Shown here in pieces: positions 3-26,869 of a stretch of 64,000 bases of DNA; position 1 is the first letter of the stretch; each line of letters begins with the position of its first letter. The notes below the pieces were generated by a model. That model ran no database searches. It saw only the letters and a program-made list of their open reading frames with translations, and was not told the DNA's origin. This stretch comes from Bacteroidota bacterium (lineage in GTDB: Bacteria > Bacteroidota > Bacteroidia > Bacteroidales > JAAUTT01). The stretch is from assembly GCA_030706405.1 (NCBI GenBank), contig JAUZOO010000006.1:186001-250000 (forward strand), read 5' to 3'. A program made the position numbers and the translations under genes.

Positions 3-2666
3 ACGCCTAATATTTCGAATACGCTTATTGGCCGTTTAGCCGGATTGACGGTAACCCAGGGGTCGGGCGAGCCCGGTAACGATAATGCCAGATGGCTAAT
101 CCGTGGAGTAGGCAGTTACGGCTATGGCGGGTACAATGTCTGCAAACTTTTTGTTGATGGATTTGAAGTTAATGCAAATTACTTCACCAATCTTTCGGCT
201 TCGGAAATCGAAAGCATATCGGTACTCAAAGATGCCGCATCGCTCGCTACCTTTGGGATGAGAGGCTCCAATGGTGTGATTTGGGTTGAAACCAAACGCG
301 GAAAAGTTGGTAAATCAACCGTTCAGGTACAGCTCCGCTCGGGAATGCAGAGCGCTACCAAAATTAATAAACCGTTGGGCTCTTACGATTTTGCCAACCT
401 TTACAATCAGGCCATAAGCAACGATAACGGCATGACTTGGACCCCTAAATATTCGACAACTGATCTGACTGCCTACAAAAACGGCACCGGGGTTAATGTT
501 GACTGGTATGACAAGGCTATGAAAAACTATGGCGCTTATAACGACGCCGATGTGATTTTTAACGGAGGTAATTCGTCGGCACGCTATAACGTAGTGCTAG
601 ACTATGCCAACCAACAAGGACTTTATAATGTTTCCAATACCGATCAGACGTCGAACATTAACCTGGCAAGGTACAACCTCAGGGCTAATCTCGATTTTAC
701 CATGTTTGGCATCTTTGAAGCTAAAGTTGACCTTGGCGGAAGATTGGAAGATCGTAAACGACCGAATTACTCCACCTCGGGTCTTATGGACGACCTTTCG
801 CGCTATCCTTCCAACATTTATAATGTATATGACGGTGATACAACTCTGTTCTCCGGTACGTCAGTTTATCCGAACAACCCTGTTGGATCTGTCAAAGGGT
901 TAGGCTGGTATTCTACACATACCCGTATTTTACAAGGTAATTTTGGTCTTAAAGAAAAGCTTGATTTTATCACGAAAGGATTATATGTAAACGAGGCTGT
1001 TTCGTTTAATGCTTACGCATTAAGTACTTATAGTAAAACAAAAAACTATGCACGGTATTATAACGGAGCAACTACCACTACCGATCAGACCACAACAATT
1101 GTAGCCAGCGGTTATGGCTCGGGCGGACAGGAAATGTGGACGCAGGGCATTGTAACGTTGGGTTACGATGGTAAGTTCGGAGCTCATTCCATTGCTTCTG
1201 CTTTAAATTTTCATGAGTCCGATTATCGTGGTGACGGTTTCTTTGGTGATAAATATCATTATCAGAACATTAGTGGTCGTTTTAACTATAACTACGATAG
1301 TCGGTATGTGGCTGAATTTGGATTTTCGTACTTCGGTAACGACGCCTATGCCCCCGGAAACCAATGGGGATTTTATCCTACAGTATCCGGCGCATGGATT
1401 GCTTCAAACGAGTCATTTCTTAAATCGAGCAATGTTGTCAACTATTTAAAAGTTAGAGCTTCCGTTGGAACAACAGGAGGTTCGGATGCCGGAGCAACCG
1501 GAAATTTGTCGTCGTTTTCTTCAAACGGACGTTTTCTCTATCAGCAATATTATAGCTCAAGTCCGGTAGGCTCAACCTATTTCGGTAATGGTACCCCGTC
1601 GGGTCAGGGAACGCTCGCTCCGTTGTTTGTGGCTAACAAAAATGTATTTGCCGAAAAAAGCCTGAAATACAACCTTGGCGCCGAGGTTACCTTGTTTAAA
1701 AAGCTTGATGCCAGCGTAGATGTTTTTATGGACAAACGCAGCAATATCCTTACCCTTGATAACTCGCTCATGGGATACTATGGATATAACTATGCCTTCA
1801 ATAATATTGGTAAAATGACCAATAAAGGCATTGAAGTAACTGCGTCTTATACCGACAAGGTTGGTGAGGTTGGATATACCATTCACGGTATGGCTTCGTA
1901 CAACAAAAACAAGATCGATTACATGGCTGAAGTAACTCCTGCCAATGCATTCAATGCACAAACCGGCCGTGCTTTTGGTACGCCGATAGGTTTGGAATGT
2001 GACGGTTTCTTTCAGTTGAGCGATTTCAATGCCGATGGTTCATTAAAAAGCGGAATTGCAGTACCTGCCTTTGGCGCTGTTCAACCCGGCGATTTAAAGT
2101 ATAAGGATCTGGACAAAAATGGGGTAGTGGACCAGAACGACGTAACCTCTATTGGAAAAACGCCATATCCGGAACTCACTTACGCTTTTGGCGGAACCGT
2201 AAATTATAAAGGATTTGACCTTACTGTATTTTTGCAAGGCACCTATGGCTCGTCGGTAAATCTTCTTGGATCGGCTTATAACCAAACGGTAGCTTTTGTG
2301 AACAATGGCAACGCATACGAAATTGCTAAGGATGCCTGGGCATATTATCCAAATCAGGGTATCGATACCCGTGCAACTGCCAAATATCCACGCTTAACAA
2401 CCTTAGGAAATACCAACAACTACCGTAGCAGTAATTTCTGGATGAAAAGCGGCGATTTCCTTCGCGTTCGTAATGTTGAACTGGGTTACAACTTTACCCC
2501 TCAGTTGCTTGGTAAGATTGGCCTTTCGAAACTAAGACTTTATGTAAATGCCATAAATCCGATTACCTGGAGCAGCCTGCTGAAGGATTATCACATCGAT
2601 CCCGAAATTCAGAGCGGCTATCCTGCCCTTAAATCGGTGAACGTTGGTATTACCGCTACTTTCTAA
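3..2666 (+). CDS. SusC-family TonB-dependent outer-membrane transporter (5' end outside window)
   Basis: The reading frame is open from the first bases of the window, so the gene begins upstream; 887 residues are visible of a family that is usually about 1000. The first visible residues (TPNISNTLIGRLAGLTV, then SGEPG and an IRG motif) are the SusC plug-domain signature. The rest is rich in aromatic and Asn/Gly beta-strand segments and ends in the aromatic terminus FTATF expected of an outer-membrane barrel. SusC proteins import oligosaccharides across the outer membrane using TonB energy, with SusD as lid. The signal peptide and carboxypeptidase-like N-terminal domain must lie off the window. 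SusD follows 18 bases downstream, so the pair is almost certainly cotranscribed. Confidence 0.95.
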   Translation, partial: TPNISNTLIGRLAGLTVTQGSGEPGNDNARWLIRGVGSYGYGGYNVCKLFVDGFEVNANYFTNLSASEIESISVLKDAASLATFGMRGSNGVIWVETKRGKVGKSTVQVQLRSGMQSATKINKPLGSYDFANLYNQAISNDNGMTWTPKYSTTDLTAYKNGTGVNVDWYDKAMKNYGAYNDADVIFNGGNSSARYNVVLDYANQQGLYNVSNTDQTSNINLARYNLRANLDFTMFGIFEAKVDLGGRLEDRKRPNYSTSGLMDDLSRYPSNIYNVYDGDTTLFSGTSVYPNNPVGSVKGLGWYSTHTRILQGNFGLKEKLDFITKGLYVNEAVSFNAYALSTYSKTKNYARYYNGATTTTDQTTTIVASGYGSGGQEMWTQGIVTLGYDGKFGAHSIASALNFHESDYRGDGFFGDKYHYQNISGRFNYNYDSRYVAEFGFSYFGNDAYAPGNQWGFYPTVSGAWIASNESFLKSSNVVNYLKVRASVGTTGGSDAGATGNLSSFSSNGRFLYQQYYSSSPVGSTYFGNGTPSGQGTLAPLFVANKNVFAEKSLKYNLGAEVTLFKKLDASVDVFMDKRSNILTLDNSLMGYYGYNYAFNNIGKMTNKGIEVTASYTDKVGEVGYTIHGMASYNKNKIDYMAEVTPANAFNAQTGRAFGTPIGLECDGFFQLSDFNADGSLKSGIAVPAFGAVQPGDLKYKDLDKNGVVDQNDVTSIGKTPYPELTYAFGGTVNYKGFDLTVFLQGTYGSSVNLLGSAYNQTVAFVNNGNAYEIAKDAWAYYPNQGIDTRATAKYPRLTTLGNTNNYRSSNFWMKSGDFLRVRNVELGYNFTPQLLGKIGLSKLRLYVNAINPITWSSLLKDYHIDPEIQSGYPALKSVNVGITATF

Positions 2667-2684: not shown

Positions 2685-4376
2685 ATGAATTCGAAATATA
2701 AATTCAGATTTGTTCTTGTAGCCGCAGCAATCCTGGCTACAGTCGGGTGTACCGAGGATTTCCTGGATACAAAAATGGACACGCAAAAGACTCCCGAGCA
2801 GATAGCTACCGACCGTGCTTCGCTGTGGTATTACGCGAATGCGTTTTATTCCCCCATGACCTATGGCTTTTCCGTACTCGACGGTAATTTATTTGCAGCA
2901 GCTTCAGACGAAGCCCAGCAAACTGCCGCATCGTCCAATGCCAATTATTTTAATCAGGGCATGATAAACGCCAGCGTTAACCCGTTGAGCGGTTTATACA
3001 AAAATTATTACGAAGGTATCCGCGCTGCCAACTTTTTTCTGGATTATTCTAAAAATGGTAAGCAGATGATTGCTATGAACCGTGATACGGTTAAAGAAAC
3101 CACCTCGTACCATGACGATCTCAACTTCCTGAAGTGGTACCGTGCCGAAGCACATGTTGCCCGGGCTTATTATTATGCCGAGCTGATAAAAATGTACGGA
3201 GGTGTTCCTATTGTAGAGAAGACGCTCGATCAGTCCGCCGGAACGTATATTGCCCGTTCTTCTTATGATGATGTGGTTGCCTACATTGTAAAAGAGATCG
3301 ATACTTATAAAGATTCATTACAGGTAAACTGGCTAACTACGTCGTCGTACATCTCGCAGGATGGGCGCTTTACATTGGGCGCTGCTCTGGCAATCAAGGC
3401 CCGCGTTTTATTATACGCTGCAAGCCCGCTGCATAATTCGACCAACGATGTTGAAAAATGGAAGAAGGCTGCCATCGCGGCCAGCGCCGTAATGACAACC
3501 GCAGGACTAAACTATGACCTGGATGCCACCAACGGTTATCGGAACTACTTCTTAGGGGCTACGCCGCTTGGAAATAAAGAAACCGTTTTGGCTGTTCGCA
3601 GAGGAGCTAACAATACCATGGAAAGCTTAAATTACCCCATTGGTACCTCCGGCGGAAATAGTGGGGTTTGTCCTTCGCACAATCTTGTGGCCGACTATGA
3701 ATATATAGGAACGCCCGATGCTATTGACATCTATAAAAACCGCGATCCGCGTCTGGCCGCAACTGTTGTACTCAACGGAAGTACCTGGACAAGCCGTACA
3801 ATCGACGAATCGGCCGGTGGAACAGACGATATGGCCAAAGCCAATACCAGCAAAACAGGGTATTATCTTAAAAAATTTCTGACAGATGCTCTTAACCTTA
3901 CTCAGGGGGCAACAGCTCAACATCAATGGGTGGCATACCGCTATGCCGAAGTGCTGCTCAATTATGCCGAAGCCGTAAACGAAGGCTATGGTGGCCCCGA
4001 TCAGGCTGTTCCCGGAAATACCATGACCGCACGGCAAGCGCTTAAAAAAGTACGCGACAGGGCAAGTACATTGTTGCCATTGGTAACTACTACCGATCAG
4101 GCAACATTTAGAGCCGCCCTAAAACATGAACGAAGGATTGAGCTGGCATTTGAAGATCACCGCTATTGGGACCTCCTGCGCTGGAAGGATGCTAAGGTTG
4201 TTCTTAATCAACCTCTTCAGGGCGTAAAAATTGCCAAAGATGCAAGTGGTAAATTCAGCTATCAGGTTGTGAATATTGCAAGCCGGGTATTCAATGACCG
4301 TAATTACTACATGCCTTTCTCCCGTTCGGAGGTTGCGAATTCCAATGGAACCCTCGTCCAAAATGATGGTTATTGA
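2685..4376 (+). CDS. SusD/RagB-family surface lipoprotein
   Basis: The 563-residue protein starts with a basic, hydrophobic signal peptide ending in a lipobox (ATVGC, Cys22), then TEDFLDTK, a common SusD N-terminus. Mid-protein segments rich in Ala and Tyr (AEAHVARAYYYAELIKMYGGVP) match the TPR-like helices of SusD. The C-terminal third contains the family motifs YRYAEVLLNYAEAVNE and HERRIELAFEDHRYWDLLRW. SusD forms the lid of the SusC transporter and binds glycan at the cell surface. It lies 18 bases after susC and its stop is 26 bases before the next start, which fits a single operon. The glycan cannot be predicted from the sequence. Confidence 0.96.
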   Translation: MNSKYKFRFVLVAAAILATVGCTEDFLDTKMDTQKTPEQIATDRASLWYYANAFYSPMTYGFSVLDGNLFAAASDEAQQTAASSNANYFNQGMINASVNPLSGLYKNYYEGIRAANFFLDYSKNGKQMIAMNRDTVKETTSYHDDLNFLKWYRAEAHVARAYYYAELIKMYGGVPIVEKTLDQSAGTYIARSSYDDVVAYIVKEIDTYKDSLQVNWLTTSSYISQDGRFTLGAALAIKARVLLYAASPLHNSTNDVEKWKKAAIAASAVMTTAGLNYDLDATNGYRNYFLGATPLGNKETVLAVRRGANNTMESLNYPIGTSGGNSGVCPSHNLVADYEYIGTPDAIDIYKNRDPRLAATVVLNGSTWTSRTIDESAGGTDDMAKANTSKTGYYLKKFLTDALNLTQGATAQHQWVAYRYAEVLLNYAEAVNEGYGGPDQAVPGNTMTARQALKKVRDRASTLLPLVTTTDQATFRAALKHERRIELAFEDHRYWDLLRWKDAKVVLNQPLQGVKIAKDASGKFSYQVVNIASRVFNDRNYYMPFSRSEVANSNGTLVQNDGY

Positions 4377-6369: not shown

Positions 6370-8046
6370 ATGAAAACCAATCGTCGGGATTTTTTACAAA
6401 GAGCTGGTTTGCTTGCAACTGCAACCGGGCTAGGGAGTGTTATCCCTGGTAAGACCTTTGCCGCAACAACTCCTGAAAAATCGGAAAATATAATTTTGGC
6501 TTCGGCTAACAGTGCTGTTGCCGATACCGTTGCTGGAAAAGTACGGGGATACATTCGCAATACAGTTTTTACGTTTAAAGGTATTCCGTACGGAGCCTCA
6601 ACCGGTGGCGAAAACAGGTTTATGCCATCGCTGAAACCGGCTTCGTGGAATGGCGTTCGCGATTGTTTGGTGTACGGGCCTATCTGTCCGCAGAAAGCAA
6701 ACAGCGGATGGTCGCAACAAGAATACGGGTTTCTATACCAATGGATCGATGGTTATCAGGAAGAAGATTGCCTTCGGTTGAATGTTTGGACTCCGGCGAT
6801 TAACGATGGAAAAAAACGACCGGTGTTGTTTTGGATACACGGCGGTGGCTTTTTTTCGGGATCCAGCCAGGAGCATCCTTCGTACGATGGCGAAAATTTA
6901 AGTAAACTCGGTGATGTGGTGGTGGTCTCCATCAATCATCGTCTTAATATATTTGGCTTTCTCGATTTGTCGGACTATGGAAATCGTTACGCATCGTCGG
7001 CTAACGTCGGGATGCTGGATATTGTGACTGCCCTCGAATGGGTTCGCGATAATATTGGTCGTTTTGGAGGAGATAAGGACAATGTAACCATTTTCGGACA
7101 GTCGGGCGGCGGAACAAAAGTAACAACGTTGATGGCGATGCCGTCGGCAAAGGGATTGTTCCATAAAGCAATATCGCAGAGTAATTCTATAGTTCAGGTT
7201 GCCACGCACGAATATGCCACGCAAATTACGGGTTATGTTTTGGGCGATTTGGGAATTACCCGCGACTCGATTGCTGAATTACATAAAATAAAACCGTCGC
7301 GGTTGCTCGAAGCGCTTTCCGTTGCCGAGCAGAAGATGGGTTCAAAAGTGCCGGCTAATGTTGGGCGGTCTGGTCTTCAACCCGTGGTGGACGGCAATAT
7401 ATTGCCCTCGCATCCTTTTGACCCGGAGGCTCCGGCTATATCTGGCAATGTGCCTTTTATGGTTGGGTCAACCCGTAACGAAGCTTCTGCCAGCATCAAT
7501 AATGCTATCGTGGAAAACCTTGATGAAGAAGGACTGAAAAAAAGGCTAAACGACCGTTTCGGATTAAAAGGAAGCCAGGTTTATCAAGTGTTGCGTAAAG
7601 TTCATCCGAATGTAAAACCTGTTGAGATTTTATCGTTTATCAGCGCACAAAATCCGATGGCTTATTTGATGGCCTCGCGGAAGTCGGCACAACTCGTCGC
7701 TCCGGTATATCTTTACATGTTTGCCTGGCACACGCCGGTGCTCGATGGTCGCCCACGGTCGTTTCATTGCAGCGAAATTCCTTTTGCCTTTGCCAATACC
7801 GACCGTTGCGAGCATTATACCGGTGCAAGTGGTGAGGCTCGTATTTTGGCCGACAAGGTGTCCGGCGCCTGGCTTAACTTTGCCCGTCACGGAAATCCTA
7901 ATCATAAAAAATTACCCGAGTGGCCTGCATTTAATGAGAAGAATGGAGCTACAATGGTGTTTAATACTCGTTGCGAAGTTCGTAACGACCCCGATAACGA
8001 AGCCCGGGAATTGCTTCAACGTATTTTTTATAATAAAGAGGTCTAA
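6370..8046 (+). CDS. Type B carboxylesterase with Tat-like signal
   Basis: The 558-residue alpha/beta hydrolase starts MKTNRRDFLQRAGLLATA, a twin-arginine signal, so it is probably exported folded to the periplasm. Type B esterase marks are EDCLRLNVWTP, the oxyanion-hole HGGGF, the nucleophile elbow FGQSGGG (Ser245), the acid region GSTRNEAS and the His region FHCSEIPFAF. The triad therefore looks complete. Within a PUL it most likely removes an ester substituent from the glycan or its oligosaccharides; which one is unknown. A second, only distantly similar esterase lies about 1.6 kb downstream. The Tat route differs from the ordinary secretion signals of the neighbouring enzymes. Confidence 0.88.
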   Translation: MKTNRRDFLQRAGLLATATGLGSVIPGKTFAATTPEKSENIILASANSAVADTVAGKVRGYIRNTVFTFKGIPYGASTGGENRFMPSLKPASWNGVRDCLVYGPICPQKANSGWSQQEYGFLYQWIDGYQEEDCLRLNVWTPAINDGKKRPVLFWIHGGGFFSGSSQEHPSYDGENLSKLGDVVVVSINHRLNIFGFLDLSDYGNRYASSANVGMLDIVTALEWVRDNIGRFGGDKDNVTIFGQSGGGTKVTTLMAMPSAKGLFHKAISQSNSIVQVATHEYATQITGYVLGDLGITRDSIAELHKIKPSRLLEALSVAEQKMGSKVPANVGRSGLQPVVDGNILPSHPFDPEAPAISGNVPFMVGSTRNEASASINNAIVENLDEEGLKKRLNDRFGLKGSQVYQVLRKVHPNVKPVEILSFISAQNPMAYLMASRKSAQLVAPVYLYMFAWHTPVLDGRPRSFHCSEIPFAFANTDRCEHYTGASGEARILADKVSGAWLNFARHGNPNHKKLPEWPAFNEKNGATMVFNTRCEVRNDPDNEARELLQRIFYNKEV

Positions 8047-8123: not shown

Positions 8124-9512
8124 ATGAGATTATTAAAAGCTTTTTTGATGCTGGCCTGTATGTTGCCGGGTTATAGCATCTTTTCGCAAACATCCGTAAA
8201 CTGGTGGCTTACATCTGCCGACAAATCGGCTTTGCTGACTAAACAAGTGCCGTTAACGTTAGGTGAAACCGCTAATAACGGAACTCCGAACATTATCGTT
8301 ACCTCCGATCATAAATATCAGTCGGTCGATGGTTTTGGCTTTGCCCTTACCGGAGGAAGCGCCCAGCACATGATTCGCATGTCGGCGGACGAGCGTAAAA
8401 AATTGATTCAGGAATTGTTCGGGAAAGGTATCAATGATATTGGAATCAGCTATCTGCGTGTAACTATCGGGGCTTCGGATTTGAATGATCACGTATTTTC
8501 GTATGACGATGTTCCTGCCGGTCAAACCGATGTCAACCTCGAACATTTTACACTTAAAGAAGATGAAAAAGACGTGATTCCGGTGTTGAAGGAAATACTG
8601 GCCGTGAACCCGGATATTAAGATTTTGGGATCTCCTTGGTCGGGACCTGTTTGGATGAAATCGAACAATAACATACAGGGAGGCAGGCTTAAAGATGAAT
8701 ACTATCCTGTATATGCCAAGTATTTTGTTAAATATATCAAGGCAATGCAGCAACAAGGAATTGCAATTGATGCCATCACCGTTCAAAACGAACCTTTTAA
8801 CGATGGAAATACGCCGAGTATGCAGTTTTTAGCCAAAGAGGAAGCTAATTTCATTAAAAAGCATCTCGGACCAGCATTTAAAGCGGCAGGAATTAAAACC
8901 AAGATTATTTTGTACGATCATAATTGCGATGCCCCGGAATACCCTATCTCCATTTTAACGGACCCCGAAGCTCGTCAATATATCGACGGTTCAGGGTTTC
9001 ATCTTTATGCAGGTCCAATCACTGCATTATCCAAAGTACACGATGCTTTTCCGGATAAGAACCTGTATTTTACCGAAATGATGGCCGTAAGCCGTAATGA
9101 TTTTAATGTGGCCAATCCTGTAAATCGAATCCTAATTGGAGCAATGCGCAATTGGAGCCGTAACGTGATTTTATGGAACCTGGCCGCCGACCCTAACAAC
9201 GATCCCCATACCGATAATGGTGGATGTACCATGTGTCAGGGTGCTATAACTATTGATGGCGATAAGGTTAGCCGCAACCTGGCGTATTATACTATTGCTC
9301 ATGCAACGGCGTTCGTCCCTTCAGGTTCTGTACGTGTCGAAAGTTCTATTTTTGAAGATCTTACCGATGTCGCTTTTGAAACACCTGAAGGAAAAACAGT
9401 TTTAATTGTGGCAAACAGAACTGGGGATGAAAAACAGTTTACGGTAAGTTGTAAGGGTAAGTCGTTTGCGGCCTCTTTAAAACAAGGTTCGGTTGCTACT
9501 TATGTCTGGTAA
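8124..9512 (+). CDS. GH30-family glycoside hydrolase
   Basis: This 462-residue protein has a signal peptide ending near IFSQ. The N-terminal YQSVDGFGFALTGGSAQ stretch is the usual opening of the GH30 (beta/alpha)8 barrel. The acid/base is Glu223 in TVQNEPF and the nucleophile is Glu318 in YFTEMM. LGSPWSGPVWMKSN and NLAADPNNDPHTDNGGC are further GH30 hallmarks, and the end forms the small beta domain of the family. GH30 enzymes cleave beta-linked glucosyl or xylosyl chains, including beta-1,6-glucan. The similarity is strongest to the glucosylceramidase/beta-1,6-glucanase branch as far as can be judged by eye, so a beta-glucan-like substrate is inferred, not shown. Confidence 0.88.
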   Translation: MRLLKAFLMLACMLPGYSIFSQTSVNWWLTSADKSALLTKQVPLTLGETANNGTPNIIVTSDHKYQSVDGFGFALTGGSAQHMIRMSADERKKLIQELFGKGINDIGISYLRVTIGASDLNDHVFSYDDVPAGQTDVNLEHFTLKEDEKDVIPVLKEILAVNPDIKILGSPWSGPVWMKSNNNIQGGRLKDEYYPVYAKYFVKYIKAMQQQGIAIDAITVQNEPFNDGNTPSMQFLAKEEANFIKKHLGPAFKAAGIKTKIILYDHNCDAPEYPISILTDPEARQYIDGSGFHLYAGPITALSKVHDAFPDKNLYFTEMMAVSRNDFNVANPVNRILIGAMRNWSRNVILWNLAADPNNDPHTDNGGCTMCQGAITIDGDKVSRNLAYYTIAHATAFVPSGSVRVESSIFEDLTDVAFETPEGKTVLIVANRTGDEKQFTVSCKGKSFAASLKQGSVATYVW

Positions 9513-9630
9513 TAAGATGGTAAAACAAAAAGATGTTGTATTTTCAACTTTTTAATTAAACAGACTAACAATATCCTTTTTCGATTGTCGAATGTGAGTC
9601 GATAATTGTCAATTACTTAAACAATAAAAG

Positions 9631-11196
9631 ATGAAAAAGTTGTGTTTTTTGTTTTGGGTTGCAATAGTTTTTGTTCCGTTGGTAAATGCACAAACCCAAC
9701 AAGGTAGCAAAGTTGCACAGGTTAAAATATCCAACGGAATATTGCAGGGCGTAATTGAGCCCGGTGGTATTCGTTCGTTTAAAGGTATTCCTTATGCTCA
9801 GCCTCCGGTTGGCGACCTTCGATGGAAAGAGCCTCAGCCTCCTCAAAACTGGAAAGGTATCCGCAAAGCGGTTAAGTTTGGACCTCGTGCTATGCAACGG
9901 CATATCTGGGACGACATGATTTTTAGAAGTGAAGGCATTAGTGAAGATTGTCTTTACCTTAATGTATGGACTCCCGCAAAGTCGTCGTCCGAGAAATTGC
10001 CTGTTTTGGTTTATTTTCATGGTGGCGGATTTGTTGCCGGCGACGGCTCGGAATACCGTTACGATGGCGAAAGCATGGCGAAAAAGGGAATAGTTTCCAT
10101 TACCATAAATTATCGGATGGGCATATTTGGCTTTCTGGCACATCCCGCATTAACACAGGAGTCTCCGCACCATTCGTCCGGCAATTATGGATTACTCGAC
10201 CAACATGCCGCATTGGTATGGGTGCAGAAAAATATCGCTGCTTTTGGTGGCGATCCTGAAAAAGTGACCATTGGTGGCGAATCGGCAGGTTCCTCGTCGG
10301 TTTCGGCTCAAATGGCCTCTCCTTTATCTAAAGGTTTGTTTGTAAGGGCTATTGCCGAAAGTGGAGCGGTGTTAGGGCCACACTCCTGCGTTCCATTGTC
10401 GCAGGCAGAGCAAAATGGTGCTAATTTCGTCCAAAAAATAGGCGTAACCTCACTGAGTGATTTACGGAAATTATCAGCCGACAGTTTGTTGAAATTATCG
10501 GCATTTGCAAGTTTCCCGATGCCTATAGATGGCTATTTTTTCCCCGAATCGCCACTTGCAATATTTTCTACCGGCAAACAGATGGATATTCCATTACTGG
10601 CAGGTTGGAACTCCGCTGAAGTTGGTTATCAGAGTCTGTTGGGCAATCAACCGCCAACATTGGACGCTTATAAAAATACGCTTAAAACAATTTATGGTGA
10701 TAAGGCTGAAGATATTCTGAAAGCATACCCGGCCGCTACCGATGCCGACGTGCCGCAAGTGGCCACCGACCTTGCTTCCGACCGGTTTATCACGTATAGC
10801 ACCTGGAAGTTTATTGACGTGCACGGAAAAACCAATGGGCATCCGGTTTATCGCTATCTTTTTGCCCGTAAACGCCCGCCAATGGTAAATGCACCTCAAG
10901 CTGTTGATAAATCTCTTGGAGCCGTTCATGCATCGGAAATCGAATATGCCTTGGGTAATCTGTCTACCAATAAGTTTTATGCCTGGACTCCGGATGATTA
11001 TAAGGTTTCCGAAACCATGGAGGCTTATTTTGCCAACTTTATTAAAACCGGAAATCCAAACGGCCCCGGACTTTCAACCTGGTATGGTTTGCAAAGCAGT
11101 ATTCCCAAAGTAATGATAATTGACGTGAACAGCCAGTCGCAGCCCGAAAAGAACCTGAAAAGATACCAATTGCTCGATAGTTTTTTTAATAACTAA
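9631..11196 (+). CDS. Type B carboxylesterase (second of the locus)
   Basis: The 521-residue protein has a standard Sec signal (ending VNAQ) instead of the Tat signal of the first esterase. It carries the full type B set: IRSFKGIPYAQPPVGDLRW, EDCLYLNVWTP, oxyanion-hole HGGGF, nucleophile elbow GGESAGSSSV (Ser218), acid region GWNSAEVG and the His region VHASEIEYAL. It probably acts in the periplasm on ester groups of the imported glycan. Two esterases of one family in one locus suggest two ester types or positions, or sequential action. Overall identity to the first esterase appears low outside the motifs, so this is not a recent tandem duplicate. Confidence 0.88.
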   Translation: MKKLCFLFWVAIVFVPLVNAQTQQGSKVAQVKISNGILQGVIEPGGIRSFKGIPYAQPPVGDLRWKEPQPPQNWKGIRKAVKFGPRAMQRHIWDDMIFRSEGISEDCLYLNVWTPAKSSSEKLPVLVYFHGGGFVAGDGSEYRYDGESMAKKGIVSITINYRMGIFGFLAHPALTQESPHHSSGNYGLLDQHAALVWVQKNIAAFGGDPEKVTIGGESAGSSSVSAQMASPLSKGLFVRAIAESGAVLGPHSCVPLSQAEQNGANFVQKIGVTSLSDLRKLSADSLLKLSAFASFPMPIDGYFFPESPLAIFSTGKQMDIPLLAGWNSAEVGYQSLLGNQPPTLDAYKNTLKTIYGDKAEDILKAYPAATDADVPQVATDLASDRFITYSTWKFIDVHGKTNGHPVYRYLFARKRPPMVNAPQAVDKSLGAVHASEIEYALGNLSTNKFYAWTPDDYKVSETMEAYFANFIKTGNPNGPGLSTWYGLQSSIPKVMIIDVNSQSQPEKNLKRYQLLDSFFNN

Positions 11197-13025: not shown

Positions 13026-15896
13026 ATGCATCTTCAAAAAAGCATTTATCTTCTATTGCTTATTTTTATGACTACCACATTGTCGTTTGGGCAGTCTTCG
13101 TTAAATTTTGGGCTAACCTCGCCACAGGATCCGTCAACATTGCCAAAGTCGGCTGTTGCTGCCGAAAAACCGGTGCGAAAAGCCTGGGTAAAACCGGTTA
13201 CCGTTCTTCAAACCGTTCACGATAACGAATGGGCTATCCGGGGAGGCTGGGAACTTGCCGAAGCATCTAAGGTAATAGCTTCTCAACAGTCGCTGTTTCA
13301 TCCGCAGTATAATACATCCGAATGGTATAACGCTACCGTGCCGGGGACGGTACTCTCTACCCTTGTCGATCAGGGCGTTTACCCCGATCCGTATTTCGGG
13401 CTGAATAACCTTGCCATTCCCGAATCGCTTTGCCGGACGGATTGGTGGTATCGTACATCCTTTAAATTGCCTGCCGGAAATGAAAATAAGATTGTCTGGC
13501 TCTTGTTCAATGGTATTAATTATAGTGCAGATGTTTGGCTTAACGGCAAACAGTTCGGCGCTATTCGCGGCGCTTTTATCCGGGGCGAGTTTAATGCGAC
13601 CGATCTGTTAAAACGCGACGGCGAGAATATTCTTGCCGTACATATTCTTCCTCCGCCCAATCCGGGTATTCCGCACGAAGAGTCGCCAAGTTCAGGCCGT
13701 GGCCCTAATGGTGGGCAACTTTGTCTGGATGGGCCTACCTTTATTTCTTCCGAAGGTTGGGACTGGGTGCCAGGCATCCGCGACCGTAACATCGGTATCT
13801 GGCAGGATGTTTGTGTTCGTTATACCAATCAGGTGACGATTGCAGACCCTCAGGTTGTTACCAAGCTTCCGTTGCCCGATACAACTAGTGCAACTGTTAG
13901 CGTGAGTACGGAAGTGGTGAATAATTCGTCAGTCAATCAGCAAGTTACTTTAAACGGGACAATCGGGAATATTACATTCAGCCAAAATGTGTCTTTAAAA
14001 GCCGGAGAGCATAAGCTTGTAACTTTTACGCCCGCACAATTTCCGCAAATACAGATTAAAAATCCGCGATTATGGTGGCCTAATGGCTATGGAAAACCAG
14101 AACTTTATACCCTAAAGCTTTCTGTTGTTTCCGAAAATAATGAAGTCTCGGACAATAAAACAGTACGGTTTGGTATTCGTGAACTTTCTTATGAGTTAAC
14201 CGTAGATGCGCCGGGTAAGAAAGATTGGCGTGTGGAGTTTAATCCTATTTCGGCGATGAAAGATGGTAAACCGTTGTTCGACAATATTAACCGGCGTAGT
14301 GTAGGCGACGGGGTAAGCATTCCAAAATTGCGTGACGATGTTGATGCTTCGGTCTTGACCGAATTGCAGGATAAAGGCACGGCTCCATACTTGGTCATTA
14401 AAGTAAATGGTCGCCGGATCTTTTGCAAAGGCGGCAACTGGGGAATGGACGATGCCATGAAACGTGTATCGCGCGAACATCTCGAACCGTATTTTCGGCT
14501 GCATCGGGATGCGCATTTTAACATGGTACGCAACTGGACCGGCGAAAGCACCGAGGAAGTTTTCTATGAATTGTGCGACGAATACGGTTTGTTGGTTTGG
14601 AACGATTTCTGGCTGTCGACAGAAGGATATAACCTGAATGTTAACGACGATAACTTGTTTCTGGACAATGCCCGCGATGTCATTCGCCGTTTTCGTAACC
14701 ATCCGTCAATTGCCATTTGGTGCCCGCGTAACGAAGGTTTTGCTCCGCAATACCTCGAAGAAAATTTGTCCGCGATGATTGTAAAAGAAGACGGAACCCG
14801 CTATTATCAGCCAAACTCGCGCTATATGAACCTTCGTCCCAGCGGACCATGGCATTATTTTAAAGATGCCTCCGAGTATTTTCGTAACAATGCCAAAGGC
14901 TTTAACTCCGAACTCGGCACACCTTCGGTTCCAACCGCTGCATCGATGCGTAAGATGATGGCTAAAGAAGATGTGTGGCCTATTAGCGATGCATGGTATT
15001 ATCACGATTTGCATTTCGGGCAGAAGGAATATTGTCAGGCTATCGATACGTTGTATGGAAAATCGAACAGCGTGGAAGAATTTTGCAAAAAAGCTCAGAT
15101 GGTTAATTACGACAGTCACCGGGCCATGTTTGAGTCGTGGAACAGCAAAATGTGGAATAATACCAGCGGTCTTCTGTTATGGATGACTCATCCTGCCTGG
15201 CCAAGTACCGTTTGGCAGGTGTATTCGTGGGATTATGAAACGTTTGGTTCTTATTTCGGCTCACTAAAGGCTTGCGAACGGGTTCATGCTCAGATGAATC
15301 TTCATGATAACAAGGTGATTGTGGTTAACACAAGTCTTAACAATCTGGTTAATGCCAGGATAAGCCTTATGCTTTACGATTTGTCGGGGAAATTATTGTT
15401 CCGGAATTCTCAAACATGTACTGCTCCGGGCAATCAGCTAACTTATTGTTTTACGCCATCCCTGCCTGCAAATCTGCCGGATGTTTACCTGGCCCGGCTG
15501 GTGCTGTCTGACAAAAGTGGACGGGAAGTTTCTGTAAACGAATATTGGAAAACGACATCGAAAACCAATGGGTTTACGGCATTTAACAAGTTGATACAGG
15601 TCGGCTTAAAAGGCAAAGTACTTAAAAAGCAAAGCGGAGTACAGTCCAAAATGGAGTTCGAGATTGCCAATACATCCAAAGTTCCTGCCATAGGAGTTAA
15701 ATTAAATCTTCGGAAGAAAGGCTCTGGGGAGTTAATCTTACCGGCTTATTTTTCGGAGGGCTATTTTACGCTGCTACCCGGCGAACGTAAAAGAATATCG
15801 GTAGATTTCAACGGTCCGGATATCCCGGAGCTGGTAGCCGATGGCTATAATGTGGTTAATGAGACTGTTGCGTTTATAGGGATAATTGATCGTTAG
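13026..15896 (+). CDS. GH2-family exo-beta-glycosidase (mannosidase/glucosaminidase-like)
   Basis: The protein has 956 residues with a signal peptide (ending SFGQ). The N-terminal jelly roll (about 65-260) contains ATVPGTVLSTLVDQGVYPDP and TDWWYRTSF, typical of the beta-mannosidase and exo-glucosaminidase branch of GH2. Ig-like domains follow, then a barrel with FCKGGNWGMDDAMKR, acid/base Glu570 in IWCPRNEGF and nucleophile Glu629 in FNSELGTP, then two C-terminal beta domains. The fold suggests removal of single terminal beta-linked sugars such as mannose or glucosamine. It starts 38 bases after the GH-A gene, so the two are probably cotranscribed. Confidence 0.88.
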   Translation: MHLQKSIYLLLLIFMTTTLSFGQSSLNFGLTSPQDPSTLPKSAVAAEKPVRKAWVKPVTVLQTVHDNEWAIRGGWELAEASKVIASQQSLFHPQYNTSEWYNATVPGTVLSTLVDQGVYPDPYFGLNNLAIPESLCRTDWWYRTSFKLPAGNENKIVWLLFNGINYSADVWLNGKQFGAIRGAFIRGEFNATDLLKRDGENILAVHILPPPNPGIPHEESPSSGRGPNGGQLCLDGPTFISSEGWDWVPGIRDRNIGIWQDVCVRYTNQVTIADPQVVTKLPLPDTTSATVSVSTEVVNNSSVNQQVTLNGTIGNITFSQNVSLKAGEHKLVTFTPAQFPQIQIKNPRLWWPNGYGKPELYTLKLSVVSENNEVSDNKTVRFGIRELSYELTVDAPGKKDWRVEFNPISAMKDGKPLFDNINRRSVGDGVSIPKLRDDVDASVLTELQDKGTAPYLVIKVNGRRIFCKGGNWGMDDAMKRVSREHLEPYFRLHRDAHFNMVRNWTGESTEEVFYELCDEYGLLVWNDFWLSTEGYNLNVNDDNLFLDNARDVIRRFRNHPSIAIWCPRNEGFAPQYLEENLSAMIVKEDGTRYYQPNSRYMNLRPSGPWHYFKDASEYFRNNAKGFNSELGTPSVPTAASMRKMMAKEDVWPISDAWYYHDLHFGQKEYCQAIDTLYGKSNSVEEFCKKAQMVNYDSHRAMFESWNSKMWNNTSGLLLWMTHPAWPSTVWQVYSWDYETFGSYFGSLKACERVHAQMNLHDNKVIVVNTSLNNLVNARISLMLYDLSGKLLFRNSQTCTAPGNQLTYCFTPSLPANLPDVYLARLVLSDKSGREVSVNEYWKTTSKTNGFTAFNKLIQVGLKGKVLKKQSGVQSKMEFEIANTSKVPAIGVKLNLRKKGSGELILPAYFSEGYFTLLPGERKRISVDFNGPDIPELVADGYNVVNETVAFIGIIDR

Positions 15897-16066: not shown

Positions 16067-17056
16067 ATGATTATGAAGAGTTTCCAATATTTTACGGTTG
16101 TTTTGTTGGTTTCGTGTATTATCGTTTCCTGCGGAAGTGATAAAAGCGTCCGTATAGGTTTTTTATTACCCAATCTTACAGATGTACGTTATCCGAAAGA
16201 CCGGGATTTTTTCAGTTCAAAGATAGCTCAGCTTGGAGGTTCTGTCGAATTTGCCGAAGCTCGCAATGATGCCCATATGCAGGAAGAGCAGGCCATACAG
16301 ATGATTCAGAAAGGTGTAAAGGTAATTGTGATTGCCGCTGTAAACCAGAACCTCGCAGCATCAATAGTTCGCTATGCTCATGATAAGGGGGTTAAAGTTA
16401 TTGCTTATGAGCGGCTTATTCAGAATTGCGACCTCGATTATTTTGTAGCCTTCGACCACTTTATTGTTGGAAAAGAACAAGCTGGTTACGCCATTCAGAA
16501 AAAAGAAGGTGGAAATTATGTACTGCTTGGCGGGGACAAAGGCGACAAAAATGCAGAGCTTATCAAACAAGGGCAGCATGAAATTCTTGCACCGGTAATC
16601 AAGTCGGGTAAAATCAATTCATTATACGATATTTTTGTTGAAGACTGGTCGTCAGAAAGTGCATATATTGAAATGAAGAAAGCTCTGGTACTGTCGGGAC
16701 AGAAGGTTGATGTGGTAATTTCGGCAAACGATGGTATGATTGCCGGTATCAGACAAGCCCTGGATGAGGAACAACGAGGTTATCCGGTTGTTGTTATCGG
16801 GATGGATGCCGACCCTGATGCCTGCCAGCGCATTGTTGAAGGAAAACAAACAATGACCGTTTTTAAATCGTTCCGGCAACAGGCCGAAATTGCAGCCCAG
16901 TTGGCCATTGATCTGGCCCGGGGGAATAAAATTGACAAAGTTCAACAATCTACGTTTAATAAGTCTATACAAGTGCCCACGATTCTTCTTCAGCCGGTGG
17001 TTGTGGACAGTACCAATGTTAAAAGCACCGTGTTGGCTGAGACCAAACAGAAATAA
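16067..17056 (+). CDS. XylF-like periplasmic sugar-binding lipoprotein (orphan)
   Basis: This 329-residue protein starts with a lipoprotein signal (lipobox IVSC, Cys22). The rest is a type I periplasmic binding protein fold of the ribose/xylose family: IGFLLPNLTDVRYPKDRDFF, MIQKGVKVIVIAAVNQN, VKVIAYERLI (compare AYDRLI in xylose-binding proteins), YVLLGGDKGDKNA, VISANDGMIAGI and VVIGMDADPDACQRIVEGKQTMTVFK. Such proteins normally deliver sugar to an ABC importer, but no permease or ATPase gene is next to it. It may serve as a sugar sensor partner, or supply an importer encoded elsewhere. An ATG six bases further on (16073) is an equally good start. It lies between the GH2 and GH3 genes of the locus. 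Confidence 0.85.
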   Translation: MIMKSFQYFTVVLLVSCIIVSCGSDKSVRIGFLLPNLTDVRYPKDRDFFSSKIAQLGGSVEFAEARNDAHMQEEQAIQMIQKGVKVIVIAAVNQNLAASIVRYAHDKGVKVIAYERLIQNCDLDYFVAFDHFIVGKEQAGYAIQKKEGGNYVLLGGDKGDKNAELIKQGQHEILAPVIKSGKINSLYDIFVEDWSSESAYIEMKKALVLSGQKVDVVISANDGMIAGIRQALDEEQRGYPVVVIGMDADPDACQRIVEGKQTMTVFKSFRQQAEIAAQLAIDLARGNKIDKVQQSTFNKSIQVPTILLQPVVVDSTNVKSTVLAETKQK

Positions 17057-17384: not shown

Positions 17385-19682
17385 ATGAAAAAAATCTGTT
17401 TATTAACGATTTGTTTAGTCGCAACATTTCAGTTGTTTGCACAAAAAGTGCCTCAGTTGGGAAAGGACAAAATTGAAGATGTTGTTGCTGCAATGACTCC
17501 TGAAGAAAAGGTTTATCTCGTTGTCGGACTTGGTGATGCTATTTGGCGAAATCCTCCTACCGGCGAAAAAACCGTAATTGTTGCCGGTGCTGCCGGACGT
17601 ACCTGGGGAATTCCGCGCTTGGGCATTACGCCTTCCGTTTTGGCCGATGGCCCTGCCGGATTGCGGATAAATGCTAAACGTCCCGATGTTTCGCAAACTT
17701 TTTACTGCACCGCTTTTCCAACAGCTACCGCCCTGGCTTCTTCATGGAATACGCAACTGGTCGAAAACGTTGGTAAAGCCATGGGTAATGAAGTGCTCGA
17801 ATATGGTTGTGATGTGCTGTTGTCCCCCGCTATCAATATTCATCGTAATCCTCTTTGCGGCCGCAACTTCGAATATTACTCGGAAGACCCGCTGATTGCC
17901 GGAAAGATGGGAGCTGCCATGATTCGTGGTATTCAGTCGAACGGCGTTGGAACCTCGTTAAAACACTTTGTGGCCAACAATATCGAAACCAACCGTATGA
18001 AGATCAATGCTGTAATTAGTCAGCGTACATTGCGCGAAATTTACCTGCGCGGGTTCGAAATAGCTGTAAAAGAGGCTCAGCCGTGGACCGTAATGTCGTC
18101 GTATAACCGGTTAAACGGATTTTATACTTCGGAAAATGCCGATTTGCTTACAACTATTCTTCGTAACGAGTGGGGATTTCAGGGCATGGTAATGTCTGAC
18201 TGGGGCGGAGGAGCCGATGCTGTTGCCCAGATGAATGCTGGAAATGACATGATAATGCCCGGAAGCCATCAGCGTGCCGAGCTTTTAAATGCCTTGAAAA
18301 ATAAGACTCTTCACGAAAAGATCCTTGATCGTAATATTATCCGTATCCTTTCTTTTATCTTGAAAAATCCACGGTTTAAAGGCTATGCTTTTTCGAATCA
18401 GCCAGATCTGAAGGCTCACGCCGAAGCATCACGAGCTGCTGCAACTGAAGGCATGGTGCTGCTCAAGAACGATAAAAACGTGCTTCCCTTTAAGAAAGTA
18501 AAAACAGTAGCTCTTTTTGGGAAAACATCATATCGCTTCATTGCTGGCGGAACAGGTAGTGGCGAGGTTAACTACGAACATGCAATATCTATTAAAGAAG
18601 GTTTTGTTAATGGTGGTTTTACTGTTGTGAAACCCTTGGAGGATGTTTATACGCAGTTTGTTGATACGGTTATGGCAAACTCGAAGGCGAAAAATAAAAA
18701 GAGTGCTGTCGATTTTCATGCCGAAATGCCACTATCTCAGCAGCAAATTGACGACCAGGTTAAGAATTCGGACATTGCCATTATAACTATTGGACGCAAC
18801 GCCGGCGAAGGTTGGGACCGCAAGGAAGCGGATTATTTCGTACTCTCGGATATTGAAAAAAACATGATTAAAGGAGTTTGCGGTGCATTCCATGCCGCCG
18901 GAAAGAAGGCTGTTGTGGTGCTCAACGTTGGTGGGGTAATGGCAACAACCGATTGGCGCGACCTTCCGGATGCTATTGTATTGGCTTGGCAAACCGGGCA
19001 AGAAGGGGCTAATGCACTGGTCGATATTCTGAAAGGTAAAGTTAACCCATCCGGGAAACTGCCCATGAGCTTCCCGGTGGCTTACCAGGATGTGCCATCT
19101 TCCAAAACGTTTCCCGGTGAGCCTAAGGACAATCCTGTAAATGCGTTTTACGACGAAGGTGTTTATGTTGGCTATCGTTACTACAACACGTTTAAAGTGC
19201 CTACAGCCTACGAGTTTGGCTATGGTCTTTCTTATACACAGTTTCAATATTCGGACATATCGCTCAGTAACAATGTGTTCTCCGATTCGATTACGGTTAA
19301 AGTCAATTTAAAGAATACCGGGAAAGCGGAAGGGAAAGAAGTGGTTGAGCTGTATTTAAGTACTCCTAAAACAGAACTTGAAAAACCAGAAGAAGAACTG
19401 AAGGCTTTTGCCAAGACTAAATTGTTGAAACCGGGCGAAAGTCAAGAGCTTAGCCTTACAATTAATGCCCGTGCTTTGGCTTCGTTCTGGAGCGGGTTAA
19501 GCGCTTGGGTTGCCGATAAAGGCGAGTATGAAGTAAGGGTTGGGGCTTCGTCGAAAGACATCCGGTTAAAGGCTTCATTTACGCTTCCCAATACCGTAAT
19601 TGTCGAAAAAGTTCATAATGTTCTGTATCCCAATTTTCCTGTAAAGGATCTTAGTATTGTTAAAAGTGAAAGTGCTAAATAA
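17385..19682 (+). CDS. GH3-family beta-glucosidase-like enzyme (PUL copy)
   Basis: The protein has 765 residues with a signal peptide (ending LFAQ). It shows the GH3 order: an N-terminal barrel with GRNFEYYSEDPLIAGKMGAA, SLKHFVANNIETNR and nucleophile Asp272 in VMSDWGGGAD; the alpha/beta sandwich from about 350 with MVLLKNDKNVLPF; then a C-terminal fibronectin III-like domain (about 650-745, ending in the EVRVGASSKDI motif). Most such enzymes release terminal beta-glucose or beta-xylose from oligosaccharides in the periplasm. It is the last gene of the locus and is followed by a strong terminator. GRTWGIPRLGITPSVLADGPAGLRI fits the beta-glucosidase branch. Confidence 0.92.
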   Translation: MKKICLLTICLVATFQLFAQKVPQLGKDKIEDVVAAMTPEEKVYLVVGLGDAIWRNPPTGEKTVIVAGAAGRTWGIPRLGITPSVLADGPAGLRINAKRPDVSQTFYCTAFPTATALASSWNTQLVENVGKAMGNEVLEYGCDVLLSPAINIHRNPLCGRNFEYYSEDPLIAGKMGAAMIRGIQSNGVGTSLKHFVANNIETNRMKINAVISQRTLREIYLRGFEIAVKEAQPWTVMSSYNRLNGFYTSENADLLTTILRNEWGFQGMVMSDWGGGADAVAQMNAGNDMIMPGSHQRAELLNALKNKTLHEKILDRNIIRILSFILKNPRFKGYAFSNQPDLKAHAEASRAAATEGMVLLKNDKNVLPFKKVKTVALFGKTSYRFIAGGTGSGEVNYEHAISIKEGFVNGGFTVVKPLEDVYTQFVDTVMANSKAKNKKSAVDFHAEMPLSQQQIDDQVKNSDIAIITIGRNAGEGWDRKEADYFVLSDIEKNMIKGVCGAFHAAGKKAVVVLNVGGVMATTDWRDLPDAIVLAWQTGQEGANALVDILKGKVNPSGKLPMSFPVAYQDVPSSKTFPGEPKDNPVNAFYDEGVYVGYRYYNTFKVPTAYEFGYGLSYTQFQYSDISLSNNVFSDSITVKVNLKNTGKAEGKEVVELYLSTPKTELEKPEEELKAFAKTKLLKPGESQELSLTINARALASFWSGLSAWVADKGEYEVRVGASSKDIRLKASFTLPNTVIVEKVHNVLYPNFPVKDLSIVKSESAK

Positions 19683-25471: not shown

Positions 25472-26869
25472 ATGAAGCTTCCCTTTTTACGGATTTTAGC
25501 AGCGTTACTACTTATCTGGACTTCGTGCGAAAAGGAGTCGTACTACACCAGTAGCGATGCTGTCCTGAAATTTTCATGCGATACCATTGCTTTCGATACC
25601 GTATTTACCAGTATCGGAACGGCCACTCAACGGCTTATGGTTTATAATCCTTACAACAAAATTTTAAAAATATCGTCTATTCAGCTTGCAGGTGGCGATA
25701 AGTCTCCGTACATATTGAATATCAATGGAGTTATGGCTAACAATGCTGCCGATATAGAAGTGTATCCGAACGACAGCCTTTACATTTTCGTGCAGGTTTT
25801 GATTAATCCTACCGGGAACGATCTTCCGCTGTTGGTTCGCGATTCGGTAATATTTAACGTGAACGGAAACTTAAGTAGCATAAAGCTACAAGCTTATGGG
25901 CAGGATGTTCATCTGGTTAAAGGAGGGACGATTAAATCCCAGACCTGGACGGCCGATAAACCTTATCTTATTTATGGCGATTTGACGCTGGATACGCTTC
26001 AATCCCTTGTCATTGACAAAGGTACAAAAGTATATTTTCATAAAAATGCGAATCTCAGAATTAAAGGTTCGTTAAACGTTAACGGTGAATTTGGCAGCCC
26101 GGTGACTTTCGGTGGAGACCGTCTCGAATCGGATTATAATGATATTCCCGGCCAATGGGGCGGGATACTTCTTATGCCGGGAAGTGTTAATAACACACTA
26201 AATTACGTAGTTATTAAAAATGGAACATCCGGGCTACAGGTTGGGACGGTGGGCAATCTGTTTCAAACGGATTTGGTGCTCTCTAATTCCATAATTCAGA
26301 ATATGGCTTATAACTGTTTGTTAGCCAATAATTCAAAGATTAAAGTTGTAAATACAGTCCTTGCCGATGGAGGTGCGTACACCTGCGCTCTTTGGGGCGG
26401 AAGTTATGAATTTTACCATAGTACAATTGTTAATTATTCCGGGTCGTATACTTCGGTAAGCCGGTATCCGGTTCTTTACTTGTCGAACTATGTGGTTAAT
26501 TCGTATGAAACTGTTATCCAGCCGCTTATTATGGTTGGGTTTTACAACACTATTGTGTATGGCAATTATTCTGACGAAATTGCCATTGATTTTAAACCAA
26601 CGGCGCCTTTCAATTATAAGTTTGACCATTGTCTGTTGAAAGGCGATGCCGGTAAGTTTACTTCCCAGTCACAAATTGCTCCAATTTGGAATAAAAGCCC
26701 ACGTTTTAAAGCTGTGGATAAAATGGTCTTTGAACTTGATACGCTTTCTCCGGCCAAGGATGCCGGGAATAAACAAGTTGGAAATGCGTATCCTTTTGAT
26801 ATTAAAATGATAAACCGGACTACCGATTTGGGGCCGGATCTGGGCGCTTACGAAAGAGTTGAAAAATGA
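25472..26869 (+). CDS. Right-handed beta-helix lipoprotein of unknown function
   Basis: The 465-residue protein has a short signal peptide with lipobox WTSC (Cys19). Residues about 30-150 form an Ig-like domain (DTIAFDTVFTSIGTATQRLMVYNP). From about 160 onward come repeating short strands with Asn and Gly turns (LVIDKGTKVYFHKNANLRIKGSLNVNG, GQWGGILLMPGS), the pattern of a parallel beta-helix as in pectate-lyase-like folds. The ending DLGPDLGAYER is common to this Bacteroidota family. No catalytic residues can be named. Its stop overlaps the next start by four bases (ATGA), so it is translationally coupled to the nuclease-family protein, and both may act on the cell envelope. Confidence 0.75.
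   Translation: MKLPFLRILAALLLIWTSCEKESYYTSSDAVLKFSCDTIAFDTVFTSIGTATQRLMVYNPYNKILKISSIQLAGGDKSPYILNINGVMANNAADIEVYPNDSLYIFVQVLINPTGNDLPLLVRDSVIFNVNGNLSSIKLQAYGQDVHLVKGGTIKSQTWTADKPYLIYGDLTLDTLQSLVIDKGTKVYFHKNANLRIKGSLNVNGEFGSPVTFGGDRLESDYNDIPGQWGGILLMPGSVNNTLNYVVIKNGTSGLQVGTVGNLFQTDLVLSNSIIQNMAYNCLLANNSKIKVVNTVLADGGAYTCALWGGSYEFYHSTIVNYSGSYTSVSRYPVLYLSNYVVNSYETVIQPLIMVGFYNTIVYGNYSDEIAIDFKPTAPFNYKFDHCLLKGDAGKFTSQSQIAPIWNKSPRFKAVDKMVFELDTLSPAKDAGNKQVGNAYPFDIKMINRTTDLGPDLGAYERVEK

Follow-up and report, generated by a model that had tools for sequence, protein, structure and literature searches.

The window, by which we mean the whole stretch of 64,000 nucleotides analysed here from a bacterium of the order Bacteroidales, begins inside a PUL that comprises two SusC/SusD pairs, GH26 and esterase genes upstream, two carboxylesterase genes, a GH30 gene, a gene for a DUF5060 protein, a GH2 gene and a GH3 gene, together with AraC-type regulators upstream that carry no other Pfam domain. 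One SusC/SusD pair lies in the window (Table 1) and the second is found just upstream of it. The gene on which this work is focused encodes a XylF-like protein and sits between the GH2 and GH3 genes, starting 170 bases after the end of the former and ending 328 bases before the start of the latter. Terminator and promoter signals around it are at the level of shuffled sequence (12 against a mean of 13.5 and 9 against 7.8), so no claim of an operon is made. Two other features of the window are a frame of 465 aa without Pfam match (25472-26866), placed between genes for an outer membrane efflux protein and an endonuclease/phosphatase-family protein, and a gene for a T9SS plug-domain protein, which is compatible with gliding and in itself shows nothing.

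Table 1. Features of the gene cluster around the XylF-like gene (positions in the window)
Feature	Position	Strand	Evidence
SusC-like TonB-dependent receptor; start may precede the window	45..2666	+	Pfam Plug
SusD-like lipoprotein	2685..4376	+	Pfam
Carboxylesterase-family protein	6370..8046	+	Pfam
GH30 glycosidase; nearest NCBIfam model endo-1,6-beta-glucanase (387.9 bits, cut-off of 700 not reached)	8124..9512	+	Pfam, NCBIfam
Second carboxylesterase-family protein	9631-11196		Pfam
GH2-type exo-glycosidase with exo-beta-D-glucosaminidase Ig-fold, directly upstream of the XylF-like gene	13026..15896	+	Pfam
XylF-like (Peripla_BP_4) sugar-binding lipoprotein, 329 aa	16067..17056	+	Pfam, NCBIfam, structure matches, AlphaFold2 model
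Signal peptide and lipobox, ending at Cys22 (IIVSC)	16067..16132	+	Sequence; Cys invariant in 7/7 own-genome paralogs
GH3 glycosidase, directly downstream of the XylF-like gene	17385..19682	+	Pfam

The frame opens with ATG and its product matches Pfam Peripla_BP_4 (E 6.3e-48). Its scores are well below the equivalog cut-offs of the corresponding models (228.9 bits against 389.55 for NCBIfam xylF, TIGR02634, and 237.7 bits against 504 for PRK10355), which is the reason why the protein is called here XylF-like and not XylF. Among solved structures, those closest to it by sequence are 4ywh, a XylF-type protein of Actinobacillus, and 3m9w, the XylF of E. coli. The protein has the XylF fold: its AlphaFold2 model (pLDDT 91.9) matches 3m9w with a TM score of 0.87, and the best solved matches of the model include E. 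coli XylF in both the open and the closed form. Together with the lipobox cysteine and the neighbouring genes, this bears out the earlier note on this DNA, which had described a XylF-fold lipoprotein between GH2 and GH3 genes in a SusCD cluster.

The best-matching models are those of D-xylose ABC transporter binding proteins and would therefore predict an importer, which is absent here. The genome that holds the window (labelled G000; 4.93 Mb, 99.71% complete) encodes seven XylF paralogs, and neither an ABC permease nor an ATPase gene lies beside the window gene, as the earlier note had stated, or beside the other six, whose loci were read over 15-20 kb. The further proposal that the protein feeds a distant importer is not supported by the search of the full genome for a matching permease and ATPase: BPD_transp_2 (CUT2-type) permeases gave 0 matches at E<=0.001, in a search that was positive in 12/14 control genomes, and none of 62 matches to XylG passed, the best one reaching 102 bits against a cut-off of 723.65. 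Beyond this genome, XylG and XylH are encoded within 4 kb of XylF in 68/72 control loci from organisms outside Bacteroidales (one of them labelled Chryseobacterium, with a gene content that looks Bacillus-like by eye) versus 0/69 Bacteroidales loci, and the Bacteroidales XylF proteins read here are thus an importer-less set. Likewise, 11 of the 13 XylF-positive genomes of a first draw lack the BPD_transp_2 permease, the other two having one each, on another contig. That the protein serves a CUT2 importer encoded elsewhere, as its membership of the XylF fold family might suggest, is consequently close to refuted, since the permease would have to be hidden in the 0.3% of the genome that is not assembled.

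A tree of 70 Bacteroidota XylF sequences and six outgroup sequences divides the Bacteroidota set in two. Thirty-nine of them, including the window gene and its own-genome paralogs L011, L012, L013, L014 and L015, are placed together with moderate support (89/93), apart from the other 31, which include the remaining paralog, L016. A 165-aa fragment (G033:C2:119575-119991) and three duplicates of G149 and G057 contigs (L048, L050, L051) were left out, and the paralog counts are lower bounds, drawn from at most five scored XylF candidates per genome. The window's group is marked by Asp157 and Asn93, both present in 39/39 sequences as against 5/37 and 9/37 of the others (outgroups included), as well as by Arg102 (38/39) and Glu192 (34/39), and a pattern search finds a lipobox-type Cys in 32/39 of its members. 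The nearest relatives of the window gene are L011, with a GH31/GH2/GH92/GH130 neighbourhood, and L012, which lies near GH32-like and fructokinase-like genes (by eye) and is followed by a hybrid sensor. The association with PULs noted earlier holds for the window gene and two paralogs from its own genome, but what recurs beside members of the family is a chemoreceptor gene and not a PUL.

Some observations made along the way concern other loci. L016 (9964-10953) and the 30 other sequences of the second group are importer-less and mostly stand alone beside housekeeping genes, often in genomes poor in chemoreceptors, and they fully retain most of the XylF pocket residues. L018 (8804-9652) encodes a Peripla_BP_4 protein with no evident signal peptide at its start, which may bind sugar in the cytoplasm; the genes clustered with it resemble those for a transketolase, a sugar kinase, an isomerase and a transporter. 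In G323, a GH3/GH43/SusC-like cluster contains a XylF gene and, next to it, a gene for a single protein that combines sulfatase and alpha-L-rhamnosidase domains (L209:9092-12637).

Regarding the ligand, we take the contacts of E. coli XylF to be Arg16, Arg91, Asp135, Asn137, Trp169, Asn196, Asp222 and Lys242, as well as Trp17 and Asp90. In the alignment to that protein, the first eight of these positions are all retained in the window protein, and the last two are Tyr and Glu, respectively; several of the positions are more variable in the window's group than in the other group and the outgroup. Such a pocket fits a pyranose monosaccharide bound with altered specificity. Since the GH2 and GH3 genes adjoin the window gene, our guess for the ligand is glucose or a related sugar. 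The retention of residues known from a monosaccharide-binding protein speaks against another idea of the earlier note, a chaperone for the oligosaccharide released by the locus. It also bears on whether the protein is a relic, or a moonlighting binder with no dedicated partner: in both Bacteroidales groups, many of the genes have only housekeeping genes around them, which would agree with that view, but the 329-aa frame is intact and both lipobox and pocket are kept across the seven paralogs, so that we consider it improbable.

What does recur beside these genes is a chemoreceptor (methyl-accepting protein, MCP) gene, which directly adjoins xylF in 14/39 sequences of the window's group versus 0/31 of the other Bacteroidota ones. 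Twelve of these cases are found by the signalling domain alone, and two were added by hand with the backing of domain matches (L127, where the contig ends within the MCP gene, and L184, whose MCP is split in two frames). The arrangement is divergent, with the MCP gene upstream of xylF, in 13/14 pairs, and the remaining pair lies on the same strand with a 38-bp gap. The other 25/39 lack an adjacent MCP gene, among them the window gene and five more members of its subclade (L011, L012, L047, L170, L172). The MCPs adjoining xylF have in common a periplasmic ligand-binding domain, which a profile of ten sequences separates from other receptors. Among those receptors of the window's own genome that were read, only the one adjoining a XylF gene (L015 7907-9616, on contig C17) proved a strong match to this profile, and one other was weak (E 7e-8). 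As side observations, genes for a dCache-type chemoreceptor, a GH3 protein and a XylF protein stand in a row on one strand in G134 (L202:2891-8720), and in L137 a gene that resembles cheW by eye is found at a distance of 3 kb from xylF.

The association is also seen at the level of genomes. The profile, built from 10 of these ligand-binding domains, was searched in 392 genomes of the order (at most six candidates scored per genome) and matched with E<1e-50 in 15 of them, the next match being at 2e-13. All 15 domain-bearing genomes have the window's XylF group, and 15 of the 16 group-bearing genomes have the domain, which is a near one-to-one co-occurrence; once the eight genomes that contributed to the profile are excluded, the domain is present in 7/8 genomes with the group and 0/376 without it. 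The exception is G212, where four members of the group are present but the domain was matched neither among the scored candidates nor in the pieces checked. Adjacency alone does not account for the association, because the MCP and XylF genes lie on different contigs in G057, G134 and G033. These numbers have to be read considering that the 16 group-bearing genomes span only five family labels and are not independent, and that Fisher values for the co-occurrence ignore shared ancestry. Over 13 adjacent pairs, XylF identity and domain identity are correlated with r 0.94, to which a common species history contributes. G128 has two separate XylF-MCP pairs of different descent, and one of them shares 95/92% identity with that of G369.

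A simple covariation between XylF and MCPs of whatever kind, which was considered too, is weak in the first draw (MCPsignal in 7/13 XylF-positive genomes and 40/119 overall), and it becomes clear only once XylF is split by the tree. As this split was noticed after the first draw, it was looked at again in the 273 genomes that a second draw added. Of these, 11/11 that carry the window's group are positive for MCPs, versus 72/273 overall. The corresponding figure for genomes whose only sequences lie in the well-placed other group is 3/11, or 4/12 if G276 is counted, an MCP-positive genome that also has a sequence of the small G038/G276 branch. Taken from sequence data, the pairing makes it quite probable that this XylF lineage works with a dedicated MCP. 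The suggestion of the earlier note that the protein may act as a ligand sensor is in this way supported by the genomic pairing and co-occurrence, and narrowed to a co-receptor of a chemoreceptor family.

The same data can be set against uptake without an ABC importer, where the window protein would pass its sugar on to a secondary carrier of the MFS type or simply raise the periplasmic sugar concentration. L011 and L012 do lie near genes resembling MFS sugar transporters (by eye), but the Pfam scan of 20 frames in the first 33.3 kb of the window shows no MFS protein, and the co-occurrence with the MCP domain would be left unexplained. In addition, no binding protein of the XylF fold is known to feed an MFS carrier, and we hold this explanation to be improbable.

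The main rival to a chemoreceptor partner is a transcriptional one, where the window lipoprotein would present its ligand to a hybrid two-component or similar sensor that activates the cluster. Its only direct hint is the neighbourhood of L012, where the gene right behind the XylF paralog (9437-10456) encodes a hybrid sensor with Peripla_BP_4, HisKA, HATPase, receiver and AraC domains. This sensor has a periplasmic sugar-binding domain of its own, so it needs no partner; the locus (L012:9437-13306, in G000 contig C18:55001-75000) has two sugar binders side by side. Precedents are provided by XylFII-LytS of Clostridium beijerinckii and relatives, in which a transport-free XylF-fold protein binds a helical LytS domain and senses sugar, according to PMC9769921, and by CuaD-CuaSR of Ruminiclostridium cellulolyticum, where a lipoprotein binder serves signalling separately from transport, according to PMC10384115. 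However, the receptor in XylFII-LytS is a histidine kinase, and the Firmicutes loci read here carry such sets beside xylFGH, whereas the recurring partner in the present lineage is an MCP and xylFGH is absent. CuaD-CuaSR, for its part, differs from the window system in its SBP family, in its kinase partner and in the presence of a transport SBP as well. The BT1754-type hybrid two-component sensors of Bacteroides use a domain of the same fold for sugar sensing in Bacteroidota (2x7x is among the structure matches), but in these sensors binding domain and kinase form one protein, whereas the binder described here is a free lipoprotein. No histidine kinase adjoins the window gene in the neighbourhood and upstream region scanned with Pfam, where the only regulators are those of AraC type, nor is a LytS-type kinase or a YesN-type regulator found around it. 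Moreover, a hybrid sensor directly adjoins only 1/39 genes of the group, versus the 14/39 for MCPs. We thus regard a transcriptional sensor as unlikely, albeit worth keeping in mind, and the chemoreceptor as the preferred partner.

As for the receptor itself, a model of the MCP built on two sequences is poor as a whole (pLDDT 64), with values of about 70-93 for much of the periplasmic domain. In this shallow model, the domain matches the McpS ligand-binding domain (2yfb) with Z 18.1 over 201 residues and the TorS sensor domain (3i9y) with Z 14.0 over 184 residues. Because helical models reach about Z 13-14 anyway through their common arrangement, the McpS match would stand out and the TorS match is suggestive among the families that the comparison lists. 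At the sequence level, Pfam gave sub-cut-off matches on the ten MCP domain sequences, plus an implausible SIKE match on 1/10, and a weak 4HB_MCP_1 match for the whole MCP of L015; a profile of the domain retrieved no credible relative among solved structures. The resemblance in predicted fold to TorS and McpS recalls systems in which a binding protein acts on a helical-bimodular sensor domain. According to PMC6321045, TorT, a periplasmic binding protein, is the partner bound by TorS; TorT-TorS and XylFII-LytS are counted there among the SBP-sensor complexes of solved structure, and indirect sensing is discussed with mention of CtpL, a chemoreceptor of the HBM type. TorT-TorS and CtpL differ from the present case in ligands and organisms, and in that the MCP domain here is without a credible solved sequence relative.

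The window's genome has a chemosensory background in which such a receptor could operate, with 17 MCPsignal matches (one with an internal stop) and six CheW-domain matches that correspond to three CheA and three CheW, i.e., three CheA/CheW sets, one cluster containing CheA, CheW, CheR, CheD and CheB. The flagellar export gene FlhA is absent from it in the genome search.

Neither binding proteins in the service of chemoreceptors nor XylF-fold sensors are new as such. In E. coli, the ribose- and galactose-binding proteins, which are of the Peripla_BP_4 type, are presented to Trg, a chemoreceptor with a helical periplasmic domain, so that a single receptor attends to more than one binding protein. 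The system proposed here resembles Trg in combining a Peripla_BP_4-type sugar binder with a chemoreceptor of helical periplasmic domain, known in this case from genomics, but the binding proteins of Trg also serve ABC importers, whereas here the importer is absent and the binder is a lipoprotein in a PUL. An importer-free XylF lineage with a helical chemoreceptor in PULs was not met in the open-licence literature, where no papers were found on XylF in PULs or on chemotaxis with PULs in Bacteroidetes, and where titles and abstracts yielded no SBP-chemoreceptor pair in Bacteroidota.

According to the mechanism that we propose, this Bacteroidales XylF lineage would consist of monosaccharide-binding lipoproteins that no longer serve an ABC importer and now provide the ligand-binding component of a chemoreceptor made of two proteins. 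Such a lipoprotein would close on its sugar in the periplasm and dock on the helical bimodular-type periplasmic domain of the dedicated methyl-accepting protein, which would then signal to CheA/CheW. The window copy, in turn, would be a PUL-resident paralog reporting the sugar freed by the GH2 and GH3 exo-glycosidases, its receptor being encoded elsewhere (on contig C17 of G000) and shared by several binding proteins. The tether behind its lipid-anchored Cys is short (about 5 residues) and would keep a copy anchored in the outer membrane from reaching a receptor in the inner membrane; the model thus calls for anchoring in the inner membrane or for release from the membrane. On balance, we consider it somewhat probable that the window gene encodes a PUL-resident, importer-free co-receptor that presents its ligand to a chemoreceptor, the pairing being known from genomics; that this particular copy uses the MCP of its lineage seems to us only slightly favoured.

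Chemotaxis has been little studied in Bacteroidota. If the co-receptor reading is true, the whole lineage gains a testable function and a named partner, and PULs, normally seen as uptake-and-digestion systems, become linked to chemosensing. The sister XylF group in MCP-poor genomes offers a ready control. More tentatively, and with odds that we would place a little under even, the PULs of this Bacteroidales group may carry plug-in chemosensory co-receptors, each cluster (that of the window, that with GH92/GH130/GH31 and that with GH32-like genes) having its own sugar-binding lipoprotein and all of them reporting via one shared helical chemoreceptor, which would steer the taxis of a cell lacking FlhA by glycan breakdown; with the importer lost, sensing alone would keep the XylF lineage.
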